A stretch of 64,000 bases of DNA from Synoicihabitans lomoniglobus (GTDB lineage: Bacteria > Verrucomicrobiota > Verrucomicrobiia > Opitutales > Opitutaceae), in NCBI RefSeq assembly GCF_029023725.1, contig NZ_CP119075.1, forward strand, positions 3,715,501 to 3,779,500. Reading direction: 5' to 3'. Below are positions 19,751-62,106 of the stretch, piece after piece. A program made the translations under genes and the position numbers. The first letter of the stretch is position 1. Each line of letters begins with the position of its first letter. The notes below the pieces were generated by a model. It saw only the letters and a program-made list of their open reading frames with translations. It was not told where the DNA came from and did not search any database.

Positions 19751-20048
19751 TTCATCGCGTGCAAGCACGCTCCTACATCCCGACCACCACCCAACAGTAG
19801 GAGCCTGCTTGCAGGCGATCCGTCGCCTCTCAGCGCGGTCCCAATCCAACCCCACTCCACCGCATTCATCGCGTGCAAGCACGCTCCTACATCCCTACCG
19901 CCACCCAACAGTAGGAGCCTGCTTGCAGGCGATCCGTCGCCTCTCAGCGCGGCCCCAGCCCACCACCACTCCACCGCATTCATCGCGTGCAAGCACGCTC
20001 CTACATCCCGACCGCCACCCAACAGTAGGAGCTTGCTTGCAGGCGATC
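19751..20048. repeat. three tandem 114-bp REP-type units
   Basis: Units begin at 19751, 19865 and 19979, each with TTCATCGCGTGCAAGCACGC followed by TCCTAC, then a spacer, then GTAGGAGCCTGCTTGCAGGC. Each unit thus carries two opposed REP-like hairpins. The copies differ by a few bases. The hairpin bases differ from those around the RAYT gene at 36.4 kb (GTGC/GCAC and CTGC/GCAG in place of GCGC), so this is a related but distinct subfamily. Confidence 0.8.
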
Positions 20049-20672
20049 GTTTCATCCGCCCCGGTCATTCCCTCCGCATCTCTTCAATCTTCCGGGCCAT
20101 CCATGTTTTCCGTGGGCCACTCCAACGCGTCCATCGCGCGCCAGCGCCCCCCCCAACCTCTCTGCACGTCCCTCTTCTCCTCGACCGTCAGCCAGCAGGT
20201 TTTACACGAAGGCAACGAAGGTTGGAAAACGAAGCAAACCGAGCCACTCCTCTGCCTCTCCACCGCGTTCATCGCGCGCCAGCGCGCTCCTACAATCAAT
20301 CTTGGGTTTTTCTCTGTGATCTCTGTGTCCTCTGTGGTTCAAAAACAAAGCGGAGAGGATATGCAGACTGCCCCTCCGGGTAGGCCGTCCGCTTGCGGAC
20401 GCTCCGTTGTGCACAAGGATGCAGGAGTCCAAATCAAGCACGTGTCTGAATGTCCGGAAGTTTATTTATTTAACACCAAGATCGCAAAGATCGCTAAGGT
20501 GAAACTGAGCGACTGAGGAGTCAGCCCCGTTCTGCAGATTATTGCAGAATACAAACTGCCCCATGATACGAAGTGCGCCCGCGGTTTTCCCACGACTCGA
20601 CTCCGCCCACCATCGGATTCTCGGATTCAACCGGTAAGTCGGTTTCCGCCCGAAATTTTCGGGGGTCGAAAT
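20049..20672. other. intergenic region with degenerate repeats
   Basis: No gene is supported. I see two degenerate REP fragments (about 20127-20147 and 20268-20294), a copy of the dispersed element CAGCCAGCAGGTTTTACACG (20190-20249), a TCTGTG-type short repetition (about 20313-20342), a CCGC/GCGG hairpin near 20387-20405, and a perfect 15-base palindrome (CCCGAAATTTTCGGG, 20649-20663) ten bases before the 36-base element. Confidence 0.5.
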
Positions 20673-24317: not shown

Positions 24318-24379
24318 ATCGCGCGCAAGCCCGCCACCACGTGACACTCGTTCCTTGTAGGAGCGGGCTTGCGCGCGAT
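24318..24379. repeat. REP-type inverted pair with 17-base perfect arms
   Basis: Arms ATCGCGCGCAAGCCCGC (24318-24334) and GCGGGCTTGCGCGCGAT (24363-24379) are exact reverse complements. The right arm is preceded by GTAGGA, the same 5' end as the REPs next to the RAYT gene. Confidence 0.8.
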
Positions 24380-32856: not shown

Positions 32857-34050
32857 ATGAATGCCACGACGACAACCGCCGCCTCCGACCCGCGCTGGTC
32901 GGGTCCCGGCGCGGATCGCAAATCCATGCGGCAACACTGGCGCGAGTTGTCCTGGCGCAAGTTGCTGTGGTCGCTGCTCTACCCCCCGCGCGGTCAGCGC
33001 ATCATGCCGACGATTTCCGGCTTCCTGCTCATCATCGTCGCCCTGGGCATCGGTAGTGCTGCTTACAATACATCGAATAACATCCTGTTCATCACGCTGT
33101 CGTTGTTGCTGGCCTGCCTGATCGGGAGCGGCGTGTTGTCCGCCCTCAATCTCGCCAAGGTCGCCTGGCGCATGGTGCCGTCGCCGCCTTATCGCGTGGG
33201 CCAGACCGGCACCGTCACGATCGAGCTGCGCAACCGTAAAAAATTGCTGCCCACTCACGGCCTGTGGTTCGAGGTTCGCACCAAGGCCGAACCCAAGGGT
33301 CGGCGTCTCGTATTGCGCGAGCGTCTGGACGCGGGCGGCGGCACCGCCCGGTTGGAGTGGTCGTGGCAACCGACGACCCGCGGTCACGAGGTCGTCGAAC
33401 TCACCGCCGTCGGGTCGCTGTTTCCCTTCGGCTTTCTGCGCAAGGTGCTGGCCTGCGAGATTCGCACGGAGGTGCTGGTGTGGCCGGCGCCGGTGGAATA
33501 CCAACGCTTTGCCGTGCTCGTCGCCAGTCGCCGCCAAAGCGGTCACGCCGTCAATAAGATCGGCCAGTCGGGTGACTTGCTGGCCGTGCGCAGATACGTC
33601 TCCGGCGACTCACATCGCCAGATTCACTGGAAAGCGTCGGCGCGACTGCGGCAACTGATGGTCCGTCAATTTTCCACCGAGCAACAGGAGGGCTATTCGC
33701 TGCGGCTCGACACGGCGGGCGATGTCTGGACGCGTCCCGAGCAATTCGAGTTGGCCTGCAGCTTCGTCGCCACGTTGGCGGAGGATCTGTTCACGACCGG
33801 TCGACTGGGCACGGTGACCATCGATCATGAACTGCCGCAACCGATCCGCGGCGTGCGGGACCTCGAGGCGTTCTTCGATCGGCTCGCCGAACTCACCCCG
33901 CGCGAATCCACCGGACGCCCCTCGCAGGCCCCGTTCCCTTCCGTTTCCGTCGGTCCTGGCGCCGCCGCCCGCTTAACCCTCACCTTCGCTCCGGAAGGAG
34001 CCCGCGGCGTGGCCGCCTTCGTCGATGGACAAAAAGCGGCCGCAGCTTAA
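32857..34050 (+). CDS. DUF58 family membrane protein
   Basis: A 397-residue protein with two membrane helices near the N-terminus (TISGFLLIIVALGIGSAAY and ILFITLSLLLACLIGSGVL), then a beta-rich part and the DUF58 signature VRRYVSGDSHRQIHWKASAR (about 250-270). DUF58 proteins resemble von Willebrand A domains and sit between moxR and transglutaminase genes in many bacteria. ATG 32857 was preferred over TTG 32836. It overlaps the transglutaminase gene by 26 bases. The function is not established for the family. Confidence 0.9.
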   Translation: MNATTTTAASDPRWSGPGADRKSMRQHWRELSWRKLLWSLLYPPRGQRIMPTISGFLLIIVALGIGSAAYNTSNNILFITLSLLLACLIGSGVLSALNLAKVAWRMVPSPPYRVGQTGTVTIELRNRKKLLPTHGLWFEVRTKAEPKGRRLVLRERLDAGGGTARLEWSWQPTTRGHEVVELTAVGSLFPFGFLRKVLACEIRTEVLVWPAPVEYQRFAVLVASRRQSGHAVNKIGQSGDLLAVRRYVSGDSHRQIHWKASARLRQLMVRQFSTEQQEGYSLRLDTAGDVWTRPEQFELACSFVATLAEDLFTTGRLGTVTIDHELPQPIRGVRDLEAFFDRLAELTPRESTGRPSQAPFPSVSVGPGAAARLTLTFAPEGARGVAAFVDGQKAAAA

Positions 34051-36199
34051 TTCCGACGACCTCGGACGACTCCGCTGGTGGCTGGGTGCCGTGCTCGCCC
34101 TGCTCTCGGTTGTCACGGTTTTCTTCATGGAAATCGATGCGTGGTTGCACATGCCGGTCGTCGCCGTCGCGGCCATCGCGGCGCTGGTCAAACCGACCTG
34201 GCCGGGTCAAGTGCCGGCCTGGATGCACCGGGCGGCGTTTCCGCTCATCGTGGTTATGTTTGTGGTCGATCTGGCTCTGACCCGCGAGCCGTTGCCGGCA
34301 CTGATCCGGCTCGACCTCACCCTCATTTTTTACCGACTGGTGACCTACCGCCAACGGCGCGACGACCTGCAACTCGTGCTGCTGGGACTGTTCCTCGTGA
34401 TTGTCGCGGGCGTGATCACCGTGTCGCTTTCGTTTGTGCTGCAACTACTGGCATTCACATCGTGTGCCCTGGTGATGTTGCTCGCCGTCACCCTCGAACA
34501 CGCCGATGGCGTCTCGCCTCCGCCGGTGCCGCCGCGGGTGGTGCCCTCCTGGGCGCGCATCAGTTGGCGGACGCATCGCCAGAAACTGCGGGCGGCGACG
34601 GATTGGCGGCTGGCGACGCTGGGCGTGGTCGGCTTCGGTGCCATGGTGGTGCTGTCCGGTCTGCTGTTTTTGGCCATCCCTCGCTTCGACATGCAGAGCT
34701 CGCTCTTCATCGACCGGCTCATCACGCGCACCACGCGCACGGGGTTTTCCGACAACATACAATTCGGTGACGTCACCTCGATCACCGAAGACAACAGCCT
34801 CGCTTTTTCCGTCGACCTGACTGACCCGAGCGTGATGCCCCGCGTGCCCTATTGGCGCATGGTCGTGCTCGATGAATACACCGGCGCCGGATTCAAGATG
34901 TCCGACGAATTCCGGCGCGATCTCAACGGCTATCGTCCGCTGCGCAGCGAGCTCAACGGGCGCGGCATCTTCTGGACTCGGGCTCCCACGTGGACGATCT
35001 ACATGGAGCCGGCGGTGAGTCGTTATCTGCCGCTTTTGGGCAACTTCTACAGCATTCGCTTCACCGAGCCACAGACCTTCACCATGAGCGAAGAATTGCG
35101 CATCGTGGCGTTGCAAAGGGACCCGCCCAAGATGTTCGCGTTTCGCACCTGGAGCATGGACACCGGCGACACGCTCAAGGATGCCACCTTCACCTTGAAA
35201 CGACGCGACGGCCGTCTCTCCGGCAGCGACTTCACCGCCCTGCCCGAGAATGCGGTCACGCGGAGTCGGCTCACCACGATTCTCGGTGACATCGCGCCGC
35301 CCGCCCATACCGATGCGACGAGCTTTGCCCAACACGTCGTGAAATGGCTGAGCGAGGTGCACCCCTATGCGCTCTCCAGTGCAGTGCCCCCCGGCGAAGG
35401 CGACACGCTGGTGCGCTGGCTCGATTCCGAGGCGTCCGGACATTGCGAGTTTTTCGCCGGATCATTCGTATTGCTTGCGCGCGCCGCCGGCTACCCCGCC
35501 CGTTTGGTCACAGGATTCCGGGGGGGGACCTGGAACGACTTCAGTGGCAGCTTTACGGTGCGCAATGCCAACGCCCACGCGTGGTGTGAGATATTCGATG
35601 ATGCATCCGGATCATGGATACGAGTCGACCCCACGCCGGGAAATCAAGGTCTCGCCACCACCGGAATCGATCCCACCACGGGGGCGGCGCTGGCTCGCGA
35701 CCGCGACAACAGTTGGAAAGCGCGGCTGGAAAGCCTGCGCGTGTTTTGGTATCGGCGCATCGTCAACTTCGACCTTGATTCGCAGGAGGCCATTCTCTCC
35801 AGCACGACCAAGTTCTTCCGCGAAAGTCGGGAAATGCTGGTGGAATGGGCGGACGAAAAGGCCAACGCGGTGCGCACCTGGGTCCAGCGCCCCTGGAACC
35901 TCGACCGCTTCCTCCAGTTGGCGGGCGCCCTCATCGGCGTGGGTCTCTTGGTTTGGGTTTGGCGTCAATATGGACGGGCATGGTGGCTGCGACTGCGACG
36001 GTCGACCGCGCGCGTCGATCAAGACCCGGTGCGGCGCGAAGCGGGACGATGGCTGCAACGAGCAACCAAACGAACGGGCTTCGTCTGGCCCCCCGAGACC
36101 GAGCTCGCCCTGCTGCGACTCCGCTTCGGCAATTCCGACACCTGGCCCGAACCCGTGAAAGTCTTTCGCTCCGCCAAAACCGCCCTGCGCAACGCGTAA
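34025..36199 (+). CDS. TgpA-like membrane transglutaminase
   Basis: A 724-residue protein. An N-terminal membrane block (about 15-230, six or more helices) is followed by a periplasmic or external transglutaminase-like domain. The catalytic triad is visible as Cys about 473 in GHCEFFAGSF, His about 517 in NANAHAWCEI and Asp about 534 in RVDPTPG. One membrane helix follows near 625-645 (FLQLAGALIGVGLLVWVW), then a cytoplasmic tail. It is related to TgpA of Pseudomonas and the DUF3488 family. With moxR and DUF58 it forms the common three-gene operon, and the 26-base overlap supports co-translation. The natural substrate is unknown. Confidence 0.9.
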   Translation: MDKKRPQLNSDDLGRLRWWLGAVLALLSVVTVFFMEIDAWLHMPVVAVAAIAALVKPTWPGQVPAWMHRAAFPLIVVMFVVDLALTREPLPALIRLDLTLIFYRLVTYRQRRDDLQLVLLGLFLVIVAGVITVSLSFVLQLLAFTSCALVMLLAVTLEHADGVSPPPVPPRVVPSWARISWRTHRQKLRAATDWRLATLGVVGFGAMVVLSGLLFLAIPRFDMQSSLFIDRLITRTTRTGFSDNIQFGDVTSITEDNSLAFSVDLTDPSVMPRVPYWRMVVLDEYTGAGFKMSDEFRRDLNGYRPLRSELNGRGIFWTRAPTWTIYMEPAVSRYLPLLGNFYSIRFTEPQTFTMSEELRIVALQRDPPKMFAFRTWSMDTGDTLKDATFTLKRRDGRLSGSDFTALPENAVTRSRLTTILGDIAPPAHTDATSFAQHVVKWLSEVHPYALSSAVPPGEGDTLVRWLDSEASGHCEFFAGSFVLLARAAGYPARLVTGFRGGTWNDFSGSFTVRNANAHAWCEIFDDASGSWIRVDPTPGNQGLATTGIDPTTGAALARDRDNSWKARLESLRVFWYRRIVNFDLDSQEAILSSTTKFFRESREMLVEWADEKANAVRTWVQRPWNLDRFLQLAGALIGVGLLVWVWRQYGRAWWLRLRRSTARVDQDPVRREAGRWLQRATKRTGFVWPPETELALLRLRFGNSDTWPEPVKVFRSAKTALRNA

Positions 36200-36234
36200 C
36201 CACGCGCTCACGCGTGATCACGTCGCCTCCGCCG

Positions 36235-36417
36235 CGTTCATCAATTCGTTTTTCACACCACGCCGCCGCGTTCATCGCGCGTAAACGCGCTCCTACCCCA
36301 GCAGGAGACCACCCATTGTAGGAGCGTGCTTGCGCGCGATCACCTTGCCTCGCCGTCCCACCCCGCTCGGTTTTCAGACCACGCCGCCGCGTTCATCGCG
36401 CGTAAACGCGCTCCTAC
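36235..36417. repeat. REP array left of the RAYT gene
   Basis: Units begin TTCATCGCGCGTAAACGCGC at 36271 and 36392, a spacing of 121 bases. Between them lies the opposed GTAGGAGCGTGCTTGCGCGC hairpin (36318-36340). The right-hand end (CTCCTAC, 36411-36417) overlaps the 3' end of the RAYT gene, whose TAG stop is formed by these bases. Confidence 0.9.
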
Positions 36418-36941
36418 TTTTTGAGCCAAGCGGGATGGGTCGATTCGTCGTCGTCGGGAAACCCAGGGCGAAACCAATTGGATTCGACTTCACCCAATCG
36501 AAACCACGGCCACACCTGCTCCGTCGACTTCGTCAAACCCGCGCGAAACGGATTGAGAGCCATATACCGCAAGACCGGGGCAAGTTTGTCGTCGGGTCGA
36601 ATCCGATGATCGAAGTAGCCACGTTCCCAGTGCAAATTTCCGGATTGCAACGCGCCCTTCGTCTTGGCCTTGAACCGTGAAATCGCTGGGGAGAGATCGA
36701 GTTTTGCGCCGAGCGCGACCAAAACATGCACGTGGTCGGGCATGATCGTCAGCGCCTGCAATCGCCAGACATCATCATCCGCGAGTATTTCGACCTCACG
36801 AATCACCGCTTCCGCCAAAATCGAGGTCGTGAGTCCCGGGCACCGATGCTCCGTGCATAAGGTCAGAAAGTAGCTCGCGCCCACGATCGAAAACCGTCCG
36901 CGCCTCAACGCAGCGTGGCCTTTCCTTTCGTCGCGCGACAT
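36414..36941 (-). CDS. REP-associated tyrosine transposase (RAYT)
   Basis: A 175-residue Y1 (IS200/TnpA-like) single-strand transposase. The HUH metal motif is PDHVHVLV (H70, H72), and the probable catalytic Tyr is Y109 in HWERGYFDHRI, followed by APVLRYMALNPFRAGL, all standard for RAYTs. These enzymes nick and move, or maintain, REP palindromes. REP arrays lie directly on both sides (36235-36417 and 36985-37475), so enzyme and substrate are together. The start is ATG 36941. The stop codon TAG is the reverse complement of CTA inside the REP sequence CTCCTAC. The gene looks intact. Confidence 0.93.
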   Translation of the reverse strand: MSRDERKGHAALRRGRFSIVGASYFLTLCTEHRCPGLTTSILAEAVIREVEILADDDVWRLQALTIMPDHVHVLVALGAKLDLSPAISRFKAKTKGALQSGNLHWERGYFDHRIRPDDKLAPVLRYMALNPFRAGLTKSTEQVWPWFRLGEVESNWFRPGFPDDDESTHPAWLKK

Positions 36942-36984
36942 AACGGAAAAAAGCCCCCTTCAGGCCACGAGGACAACCCCCAAC

Positions 36985-37475
36985 GTAGGAGCGTGCTTGC
37001 GCGCGATCACCTTGCCTCACCGTCCCACCCCGCTCGGTTTTCAGACCACGCCGCCGTGTTCATCGCGCGTAAACGCGCTCCTACCCAAGCAGGAGACCAC
37101 TCCGATGTAGGAGCGTGCTTGCGCGCGATCACCTTGCCTCACCGTCCGACCCCGCTCGGTTTTCAGACCACTCCGCCGCGTTCATCGCGCGTAAACGCGC
37201 TCCTACCCAGGCAGGAGACCACCCATTGTAGGAGCGTGCTTGCGCGCGATCACTTTGCCTCGCCGTCCGACCCCGCTCGGTTTTCAGACCACTCCGCCGC
37301 GTTCATCGCGCGTAAACGCGCTCCTACCCCAGCAGGAGACCACCCATTGTAGGAGCGTGCTTGCGCGCGATCACCTTGCCTCACCGTCCGAGCCCGCTCG
37401 CTTTTCACACCACGCCGCCGCGTTCATCGCGCGTAAACGCGCTCCTACCCCAACAAGAGACCACTCCGATGTTGA
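36985..37475. repeat. REP array right of the RAYT gene
   Basis: GTAGGAGCGTGCTTGCGCGC occurs at 36985, 37107, 37228 and 37349, alternating with TTCATCGCGCGTAAACGCGC at 37059, 37181, 37302 and 37423. The period is 121-122 bases. The spacers alternate between two short types (one with CACCCATT, one with CACTCCGAT). The last right-hand hairpin (about 37470) is degenerate. The opposed pairs make BIME-like units. Confidence 0.92.
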
Positions 37476-37513: not shown

Positions 37514-37810
37514 TCAGGCAGTCACAATCTTTTCCATCGCGGTGGCCAATGTGATGTCTTTTGCCGTGATCTTGTTGCCTGCGTGGTGGGTCCGCAGGCG
37601 CACGGTGACGGTGTCGTAGACGTTGGTCCATTCCGGGTGATGGTCCATGGCGTCCGCTTCAAATCCGACTTGCATCATGAACACCAATGCCGCGCGGAAA
37701 TCAGCAAAGGTGTATTCCTTGGTGAGACTGTCGCCATCGACCGACCAACCGGGCAGGGCAGCCAGGGCGGATTGAATCGCGGCGGGTTCGAGGGGCGGGT
37801 CTGCAGACAT
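37514..37810 (-). CDS. phhB: pterin-4a-carbinolamine dehydratase
   Basis: A 98-residue enzyme that dehydrates 4a-hydroxytetrahydrobiopterin, recycling the pterin cofactor of aromatic amino acid hydroxylases. The family motif is seen as DHHPEWTNVYDTVTVRLRTH followed by AGNKITAKD, with the catalytic His residues in DHHP and RTHH. Its length is typical. It is divergent from uppS and no hydroxylase gene is nearby, so its actual partner reaction here is not shown. Confidence 0.93.
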   Translation of the reverse strand: MSADPPLEPAAIQSALAALPGWSVDGDSLTKEYTFADFRAALVFMMQVGFEADAMDHHPEWTNVYDTVTVRLRTHHAGNKITAKDITLATAMEKIVTA

Positions 37811-62084: not shown

Positions 62085-62106
62085 AGGAGCGCGAGCGCAC
62101 TCCTAC
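62085..62106. repeat. REP-like hairpin between ccoP and ccoG
   Basis: AGGAGCGCGAGCGCACTCCT followed by AC forms an imperfect hairpin (AGGAG/CTCCT arms) and ends in CTCCTAC, like the REPs at 36-37 kb. It lies inside an operon and would be transcribed. Confidence 0.5.

Follow-up and report, generated by a model that had tools for sequence, protein, structure and literature searches.

We describe here a RAYT (REP-associated tyrosine transposase) gene from a verrucomicrobial genome, embedded in an array of REPs, one of which supplies the TAG stop codon of the gene. The locus is very probably an ordinary RAYT/REPtron provided with its own REPs, in which the sharing of a stop codon between gene and repeat is recurrent, labile and in need of no special function. 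The window analyzed, a stretch of 64,000 nucleotides, spans positions 3715501-3779500 of a genome assembled in one contig of 5,926,369 bases. The features found around the RAYT, in window coordinates, are the following:

34025-36199, plus strand: tgpA-like transglutaminase gene, left neighbor, convergent with the RAYT
36196-36296: head-to-head REP unit 1; its left REP is degenerate, with the head position coinciding with the tgpA stop TAA (36197-36199)
36318-36417: head-to-head REP unit 2, adjoining the 3' end of the RAYT
36414-36416, minus strand: TAG stop codon of the RAYT, within the REP head GTAG (36417 to 36414)
36414-36941, minus strand: RAYT gene, 175 aa, with HVH at residues 70-72 and catalytic Tyr126
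36418-36984: tail-to-tail interval of 567 bp containing the RAYT (other intervals in the array, 21-22 bp)
36985-37084: head-to-head REP unit 3, upstream of the RAYT, with a 43-nt leader between
37107-37206: head-to-head REP unit 4, predicted to form a single long hairpin (z -3.31)
37228-37327: head-to-head REP unit 5
37349-37448: head-to-head REP unit 6, followed by an apparent degenerate head near 37471, seen by eye
37514-37810, minus strand, as the RAYT: pterin-4a-carbinolamine dehydratase gene, right neighbor

The array consists of 11 good REPs and a degenerate one, arranged in six head-to-head pairs of about 100 bp with their GTAG heads pointing outward: heads on the plus strand start at 36318, 36985, 37107, 37228 and 37349, those on the minus strand are found at 36296, 36417, 37084, 37206, 37327 and 37448. 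The two units to the left of the RAYT and the four to its right, recurring with a period of 121-122 bases, were correctly recognized in a preliminary description of this DNA, which however placed the beginning of the leftmost unit at 36235 instead of 36196, having missed its degenerate left REP, GTAACCACGCGCTCACGCGTGATC. The latter features GTAA in place of GTAG, and its stem appears by eye still able to pair; the left 70 nt of unit 1 align with a score of 19.3, compared to 7.6 for the best of 300 shuffles. Identity among the aligned parts of the units ranges from 93 to 100%, and each pair combines two loop variants, CTTG in one REP and TTTA in its partner. Two spacer types had been said to alternate: long spacers inside the head-to-head pairs do alternate with short ones of 21-22 nt between pairs, but the short ones come in two variants, which do not strictly alternate. 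When folded as DNA, unit 4 forms one long hairpin, and none of 200 shuffles is equally stable.

The RAYT is preceded by an inverse REP and carries a forward one at its stop, and is thus flanked by inverted REPs on both sides. Its TAG (36416 to 36414, minus strand) is, as originally noticed, the TAG of GTAGGAGCGCGTTTACGCGC, and is found in the context G-TAG-GAGCG within the REP head. Derivation of the short tail-to-tail spacers from the RAYT leader, which would make them remnants of a deleted RAYT, is not claimed, as the spacers disagree: two match the leader at 13 of 21 positions (shuffle p 0.005), the remaining ones at 11/21 (p 0.04) and 6/22 (p 0.76).

The gene is intact, and its product matches Pfam Y1_Tnp and passes the curated cut-off of the NCBIfam REP_Tyr_transpos model NF047646 (88.1 versus 80 bits), while falling below that of the IS200/IS605 transposase equivalog NF033573 (31.2 versus 55 bits). 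The HVH motif reported at first is confirmed, both histidines, His70 and His72, being present in 77/77 relatives. In contrast, Tyr109, initially taken as the nucleophile, is to be replaced by Tyr126, on the basis of alignment and conservation: position 126 is a tyrosine in 74/77 relatives, and position 109 is a tyrosine in 22 and a phenylalanine in 43 of the 77. Tyr126 pairs, as counted on a sequence alignment, with residue 115 of the E. coli protein, where Y115F is reported as a catalytic mutant (PMC8266576). The best solved relative by sequence is 4er8 (TnpA-REP), a REP-associated tyrosine transposase in complex with a REP hairpin, which is also the best PDB match (E 5e-8, TM 0.67 and 0.71) of a predicted model of the RAYT structure (pLDDT 83.9), where residue 126 falls within helix 121-133. 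Third-position GC is 0.68, compared to 0.765 +- 0.039 for 34 genes of the window, of which 32 exceed the RAYT; this low value fits either a foreign origin or fast evolution.

REPs are abundant in the rest of the window as well. A 15-base REP core, searched with up to 3 mismatches, is found 28 times, versus 7.1 +- 2.6 in dinucleotide shuffles, a figure reached in none of 100 shuffles. Outside the RAYT array, the following elements were located:

19762-20039: second array of the same REP family, with six REPs, a 114-bp period and 20-nt tail-to-tail spacers
24326-24371: tail-to-tail pair of the same family, one partner being degenerate
62092-62106, minus strand: degenerate single REP

These elements had been described as diverged forms of the palindrome found next to the RAYT. 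They are indeed related, but the copies at 19.7-20.0 kb and 24.3 kb are not diverged: since their cores are exact or one-mismatch, they belong to the same genome-wide family. The degenerate partner at 24326 has 3 core mismatches and the copy at 62.1 kb has 2. A few hundred bases past the 19.7-20.0 kb array, at 20381-20402, the sequence GTAGGCCGTCCGCTTGCGGACG resembles a REP of another family; a 17-base pattern derived from a repetitive-looking string near 20.3 kb occurs only once in the genome.

Genome-wide, the core is found 70 times (30 + 40), and a reversed-pattern control gives 0. Units related to those of the array are found at four other places, with 73-75% identity over most of the unit. 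In 444 kb of sequence from the same genome, made up of loci selected for REPs or RAYTs and therefore not representative of genome-wide density, 130 REPs were detected with up to 4 mismatches, versus 6 in one shuffled copy. Neighbors within 150 nt are head-to-head in 36 cases, tail-to-tail in 14 and never in the same direction, 43 of the 130 REPs being single; spacing between cores is mostly 16-62 nt. Within the same loci, 57 of 128 placed REPs lie between convergent genes, 55 between co-directional and 2 between divergent ones, with 14 inside called genes, the gaps longer than 30 nt being 46 convergent, 104 co-directional and 20 divergent.

The same genome hosts further loci of this kind. A tandem RAYT pair at 5878081-5879252 (locus L084), each gene being followed by an inverse GTAGGCCGCGAGC REP, represents another RAYT/REP family. 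RAYT-like matches were also observed at 4356559, 3465588 and 1819425, the last with an internal TAG, and a Y1_Tnp match with an internal TGA, possibly a decayed RAYT, was noted at 2983128-2983376, about 1.4 kb from a head-to-head unit of the window family (2981604-2981691).

The junction occupied by the array could be compared in other genomes of the genus. The tgpA gene lies near the pterin dehydratase gene in five of seven; no pterin gene falls inside the examined locus of G064, and the tgpA match of G122 is weak. The gap between the two convergent stops is 3 bp in G020, 55 bp in G090 and 67 bp in G120, where the tgpA frame is interrupted in the assembly, compared to 1,314 bp in the window. 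Gaps of 861-871 bp in G111 and G121 indicate that this junction is not always tight. Among the same-genus genomes compared, a RAYT query matched at this junction only in the locus of the window, so that RAYT and array were either added in the lineage of the window or lost elsewhere. None of the four other same-genus genomes present in the family sample of 120 contains the core REP (0 copies), and their RAYTs are only more distant ones (best match 7.8e-34, in G064).

The sample of 120 genomes, belonging to 49 genera of the family, was used to place the locus in a wider context. A relative of the RAYT is encoded in 95 of them, and 79 RAYT loci were analyzed, weaker matches having been taken in only partly; one locus whose contig ends before the stop (L079), one with a broken frame (L098) and duplicates (L029 = L061, L030 = L099) were left out, and L106 and L107, found in two genomes, are nearly identical. 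The tree includes 77 of the 79 RAYTs, without L077, which has an internal stop, and one member of the L084 tandem. For distant RAYTs the start was extrapolated from the alignment, and upstream distances are accordingly rough.

A GTRG head recurring within the locus is found at most 100 nt downstream of the stop in 68 of the 79 RAYTs, the first one being forward in 33 and inverse in 35, and all of these 68 are provided with another upstream, at most 150 nt away. Around the genes, heads face the RAYT (tail-to-tail) in 19 cases, point away (head-to-head) in 30 and run the same way in 19, with 11 undetermined. The type of head requires 28 changes on the RAYT tree, versus a mean of 53.8 after shuffling, with none of 200 shuffles as low: RAYT and REP type co-vary, the REP type following the RAYT tree.

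All 12 genomes with a GTAGGAGC head flanking an examined RAYT contain the core REP, in 2 to 92 copies, compared to 40 of the other 108 genomes, which have at least one copy (Mann-Whitney p 1.7e-7). That REPs of this sequence would not be common where such a RAYT is lacking, as initially anticipated, holds only in part, as 13 of the 108 contain at least 20 core REPs and no GTAGGAGC-flanked RAYT among the loci examined, which cover the RAYTs of most genomes partly. REPs can thus be present where none of the examined RAYTs matches them, although assemblies broken at repeats may hide some RAYTs. G071, assembled in one contig, has 122 core REPs, and in its locus L209 a head-to-head GTAGGAGC pair lies about 0.5 kb from a RAYT, without flanking it. 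G083, in about 380 contigs, has 470 copies of the core REP; in this fragmented assembly no RAYT passed the NCBIfam cut-off, and six GTAGGAGC heads are present in the 3.2 kb of its Y1-transposase locus L220. G083 also features many Y1-transposase matches within open frames of about 331 codons.

How often RAYTs share their stop with a REP was determined over the whole set. A hairpin detector requiring a stem of at least 6 missed the window's own REP, and was replaced by a 5-bp one and then by one based on head recurrence; both give 18 of 79 RAYTs with the stop TAG in a REP head, differing in one member (L063 versus L116). The suggestion that the gene might always end inside a REP in relatives is therefore not borne out, and of the 42 RAYTs nearest to that of the window only 6 share their stop. 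On the tree of 77 RAYTs the character changes 15 times, at least 9 changes being forced by well-supported branches, compared to a shuffled mean of 16.5, with 98 of 500 shuffles as low. With this many changes, and clustering no better than chance, stop sharing must have been gained or lost many times; a conserved RAYT trait is ruled out. Stop sharing as a special feature of this gene, as it had seemed at first sight, is likewise unsupported, being limited to 18/79 RAYTs, scattered on the tree and shown by other ORFs.

Indeed, 15 of 255 control ORFs of at least 150 codons from the same loci, which are mechanical and not annotated genes, end in a REP head (10/255 by the 5-bp detector), and 101 of the 255 have a recurring GTRG head downstream. 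Stop sharing is nevertheless more frequent in RAYTs, both overall (18/79 versus 15/255, p 5e-5) and where the first downstream REP is forward (18/33 versus 15/72, Fisher p 0.0012), neither figure being corrected for relatedness. Given this excess, a factor other than chance placement may be at work in RAYTs, but the excess may also reflect only REPs lying closer to them. In a wider control of 496 ORFs of at least 200 codons, with own-genome loci added, 14 forward heads fall exactly on the stop, with none at offsets -4 to -2, 3 at 0 to 5 and 47 at 6 to 30; in 14 cases a head hit within the last 90 nt is read through, about five of these looking by eye like true REPs.

Besides the window RAYT, which is absent from this list and counted separately, a REP provides the stop of four called genes in the own-genome loci; genes were called by a home-made codon-usage score. 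Three of them match Pfam Ppx-GppA, pseudouridine synthase and the class I tRNA synthetase catalytic domain, and the fourth has no Pfam match. The Ppx-GppA and pseudouridine synthase genes are convergent, and both their stops are heads of a single head-to-head unit (2364473-2364651), whose REPs differ from the consensus by 2 and 4 mismatches. At the same junction in G020 a different REP, present at 5 places of that genome (3 exact, 2 with one mismatch), supplies the Ppx stop (C1:321653-321710); the pseudouridine synthase gene likewise stops in a GTAG, after which a hairpin, at most a candidate repeat, may form. In G064, G111 and G121 one gene directly adjoins or overlaps the other, and no REP was seen; the distance is about 57 bp in G120, and in G090 the genes are not neighbors. 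The C-terminal lengths of the three REP-stopped genes were within the range of their orthologues, as judged by eye.

The explanation that we favor regards the RAYT as a single-strand transposase that was domesticated and has a REP family of its own. What moves would probably be the head-to-head pair, or REPIN, of about 100 bp, which the RAYT, judging from studied relatives, might mobilize in trans via GTAG head and hairpin. The array may have arisen by entry of REP units at a tight convergent junction, between tgpA and the pterin dehydratase gene, and by local tandem amplification, with the RAYT apparently sitting in one of its tail-to-tail gaps. As GTAG contains TAG, a REP that adjoins the end of a gene can provide the stop in place of the original one when in the right frame; a RAYT, with REPs close on both sides, would share its stop often, not always, and sharing would come and go. 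Stop sharing looks like a recurrent and short-lived by-product of where REPs settle. This explanation leaves unaccounted for the 13 REP-rich genomes where no matching RAYT was found; the putatively mobile REPINs were observed as dispersed copies.

Two different views would assign a role to the position of REPs at stop codons. REP units could choose them, insertion being targeted to gene ends, or retained there, so that a GTAG head precisely replaces the native stop and a unit falling at a convergent junction caps both genes; we regard this as a possible but somewhat unlikely reading. The Ppx-GppA/pseudouridine synthase junction, capped on both sides by one unit here, involving a different REP in G020 and abutting or overlapping without REPs in three other genomes, speaks in its favor, along with the C-terminal lengths of the REP-stopped proteins, similar by eye to those of orthologues, and the 14 heads found on stops versus about five apparently true read-through cases, where random frames predict read-through to be twice as frequent as stops. 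Numbers are, however, small, and selection after random insertion would yield the same pattern. Moreover, the tgpA protein of the window ends at the residue matching G020 and G120, and yet the adjoining head is GTAA and not an intact GTAG, and GTGG-headed REPs have spread without offering any stop. In its strongest form, which we consider unlikely, the GTAG head would be a built-in stop, the two outward TAGs capping both convergent genes at their native length; through selection or target choice, this would help explain why GTAG heads are maintained in different REP families and why RAYTs often end in their own REPs. If true, REP position and head sequence would have a simple reason in many bacteria, and the way in which REPs avoid harming dense genomes would receive an explanation open to testing. 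It is quite improbable, in our opinion, that REP hairpins at start and stop tune the translation of the RAYT in an autoregulatory manner. The distance from the end of an inverse REP to the expected start is 3-12 nt in nine RAYTs, eight of which actually have a start codon at that place, the stop lies inside a REP head in 18 of 79, and lowered translation has been reported in E. coli for REPs at most 15 nt from a stop (PMC12306157); but the leader of the window RAYT is 43 nt long, and stop sharing is not conserved. The absence of Shine-Dalgarno sites in RAYTs is uninformative, since few genes of the genome have one (22 of 242 when the leftmost start is considered, 40 of 242 when any start within the first 30 codons is allowed).

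It could also be argued that the array originated by simple tandem duplication without any connection to the RAYT, the gene having entered it only afterwards. The regular period of 121-122 bp, the 93-100% identity of the aligned unit parts and the third-position GC of the gene (0.68 versus 0.765 +- 0.039) would fit such a history. We deem it very improbable, given that related units are dispersed at four places of the genome with 73-75% identity, that the REP type follows the RAYT tree, and that a recurring GTRG head is found on both sides of 68 of 79 RAYTs, a downstream one being present in 101 of 255 control ORFs.

Most elements of this picture have been reported before. Di Nocera et al. (2013) described GTAG repeats in Opitutus terrae, a member of the Verrucomicrobia, among species rich in GTAG REPs (PMC3733652), and GTAG REPs supplying TAG stops are already published; the likeness to BIMEs, rightly pointed out in the preliminary description, is thus not surprising. 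Nunvar et al. (2010) reported REPs very near or directly after the stop of rayt genes, BIMEs incorporating the 3' end of these genes, and the coevolution of RAYTs and REPs (PMC2817692), RAYTs are reported to bind and cut single-stranded REPs with involvement of the GTAG head (PMC8266576), and the REP doublet is reported to be the spreading unit (Bertels and Rainey 2011, PMC3116915). In the literature covered, consisting of main-text passages for the most part outside subscription journals, we found neither a count of stop sharing over a RAYT tree nor a comparison of protein ends between REP-stopped genes and REP-free orthologues. In the light of these reports the locus joins the known RAYT/REPtrons with a REPIN/BIME array, and the comparative addition is modest: among RAYTs the shared stop is an unstable character, and the stop of a gene can be provided by a REP head in place of the native one. 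The analysis also provides a quantitative extension of RAYT/REPIN systems to a family of Verrucomicrobia, where the REP type tracks the RAYT tree, as reported for Stenotrophomonas.

As in the RAYT/TnpA-REP systems and REPtrons described previously (PMC2817692, PMC3733652, PMC8266576), an HUH-Tyr relative of IS200/IS605 transposases is flanked on both sides by inverted GTAG-headed REPs, co-varies with them and is associated with a BIME array; REPs abut or overlap the gene end, and GTAG REPs supply TAG stops. The present locus differs in being a verrucomicrobial member, whose activity is predicted, and in the position of the RAYT within a tail-to-tail gap of an array of head-to-head pairs, with GTAG heads beside the gene. 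REPINs, as described (PMC3116915), are similarly inverted doublets of defined length, capable of forming a single hairpin and clustered in tandem beside a RAYT; here the unit is about 100 bp long and combines two REP variants, with CTTG and TTTA loops, in each pair. Gamma-proteobacterial BIMEs share the alternating orientation of REPs and the long and short spacers, but belong to another phylum and have a different REP sequence. Closest in taxonomy are the O. terrae GTAG-17, GTAG-19 and GTAG-20 repeats (PMC3733652), likened here by description and not by consensus sequence, which in this verrucomicrobium are GTAG/GTGG palindromes arranged as dimers, either head-to-head or tail-to-tail; in the GTAG-17 and GTAG-19 dimers the partners are reported to lie 1-2 bp apart, compared to the 16-62 nt mostly found between cores in the family described here.
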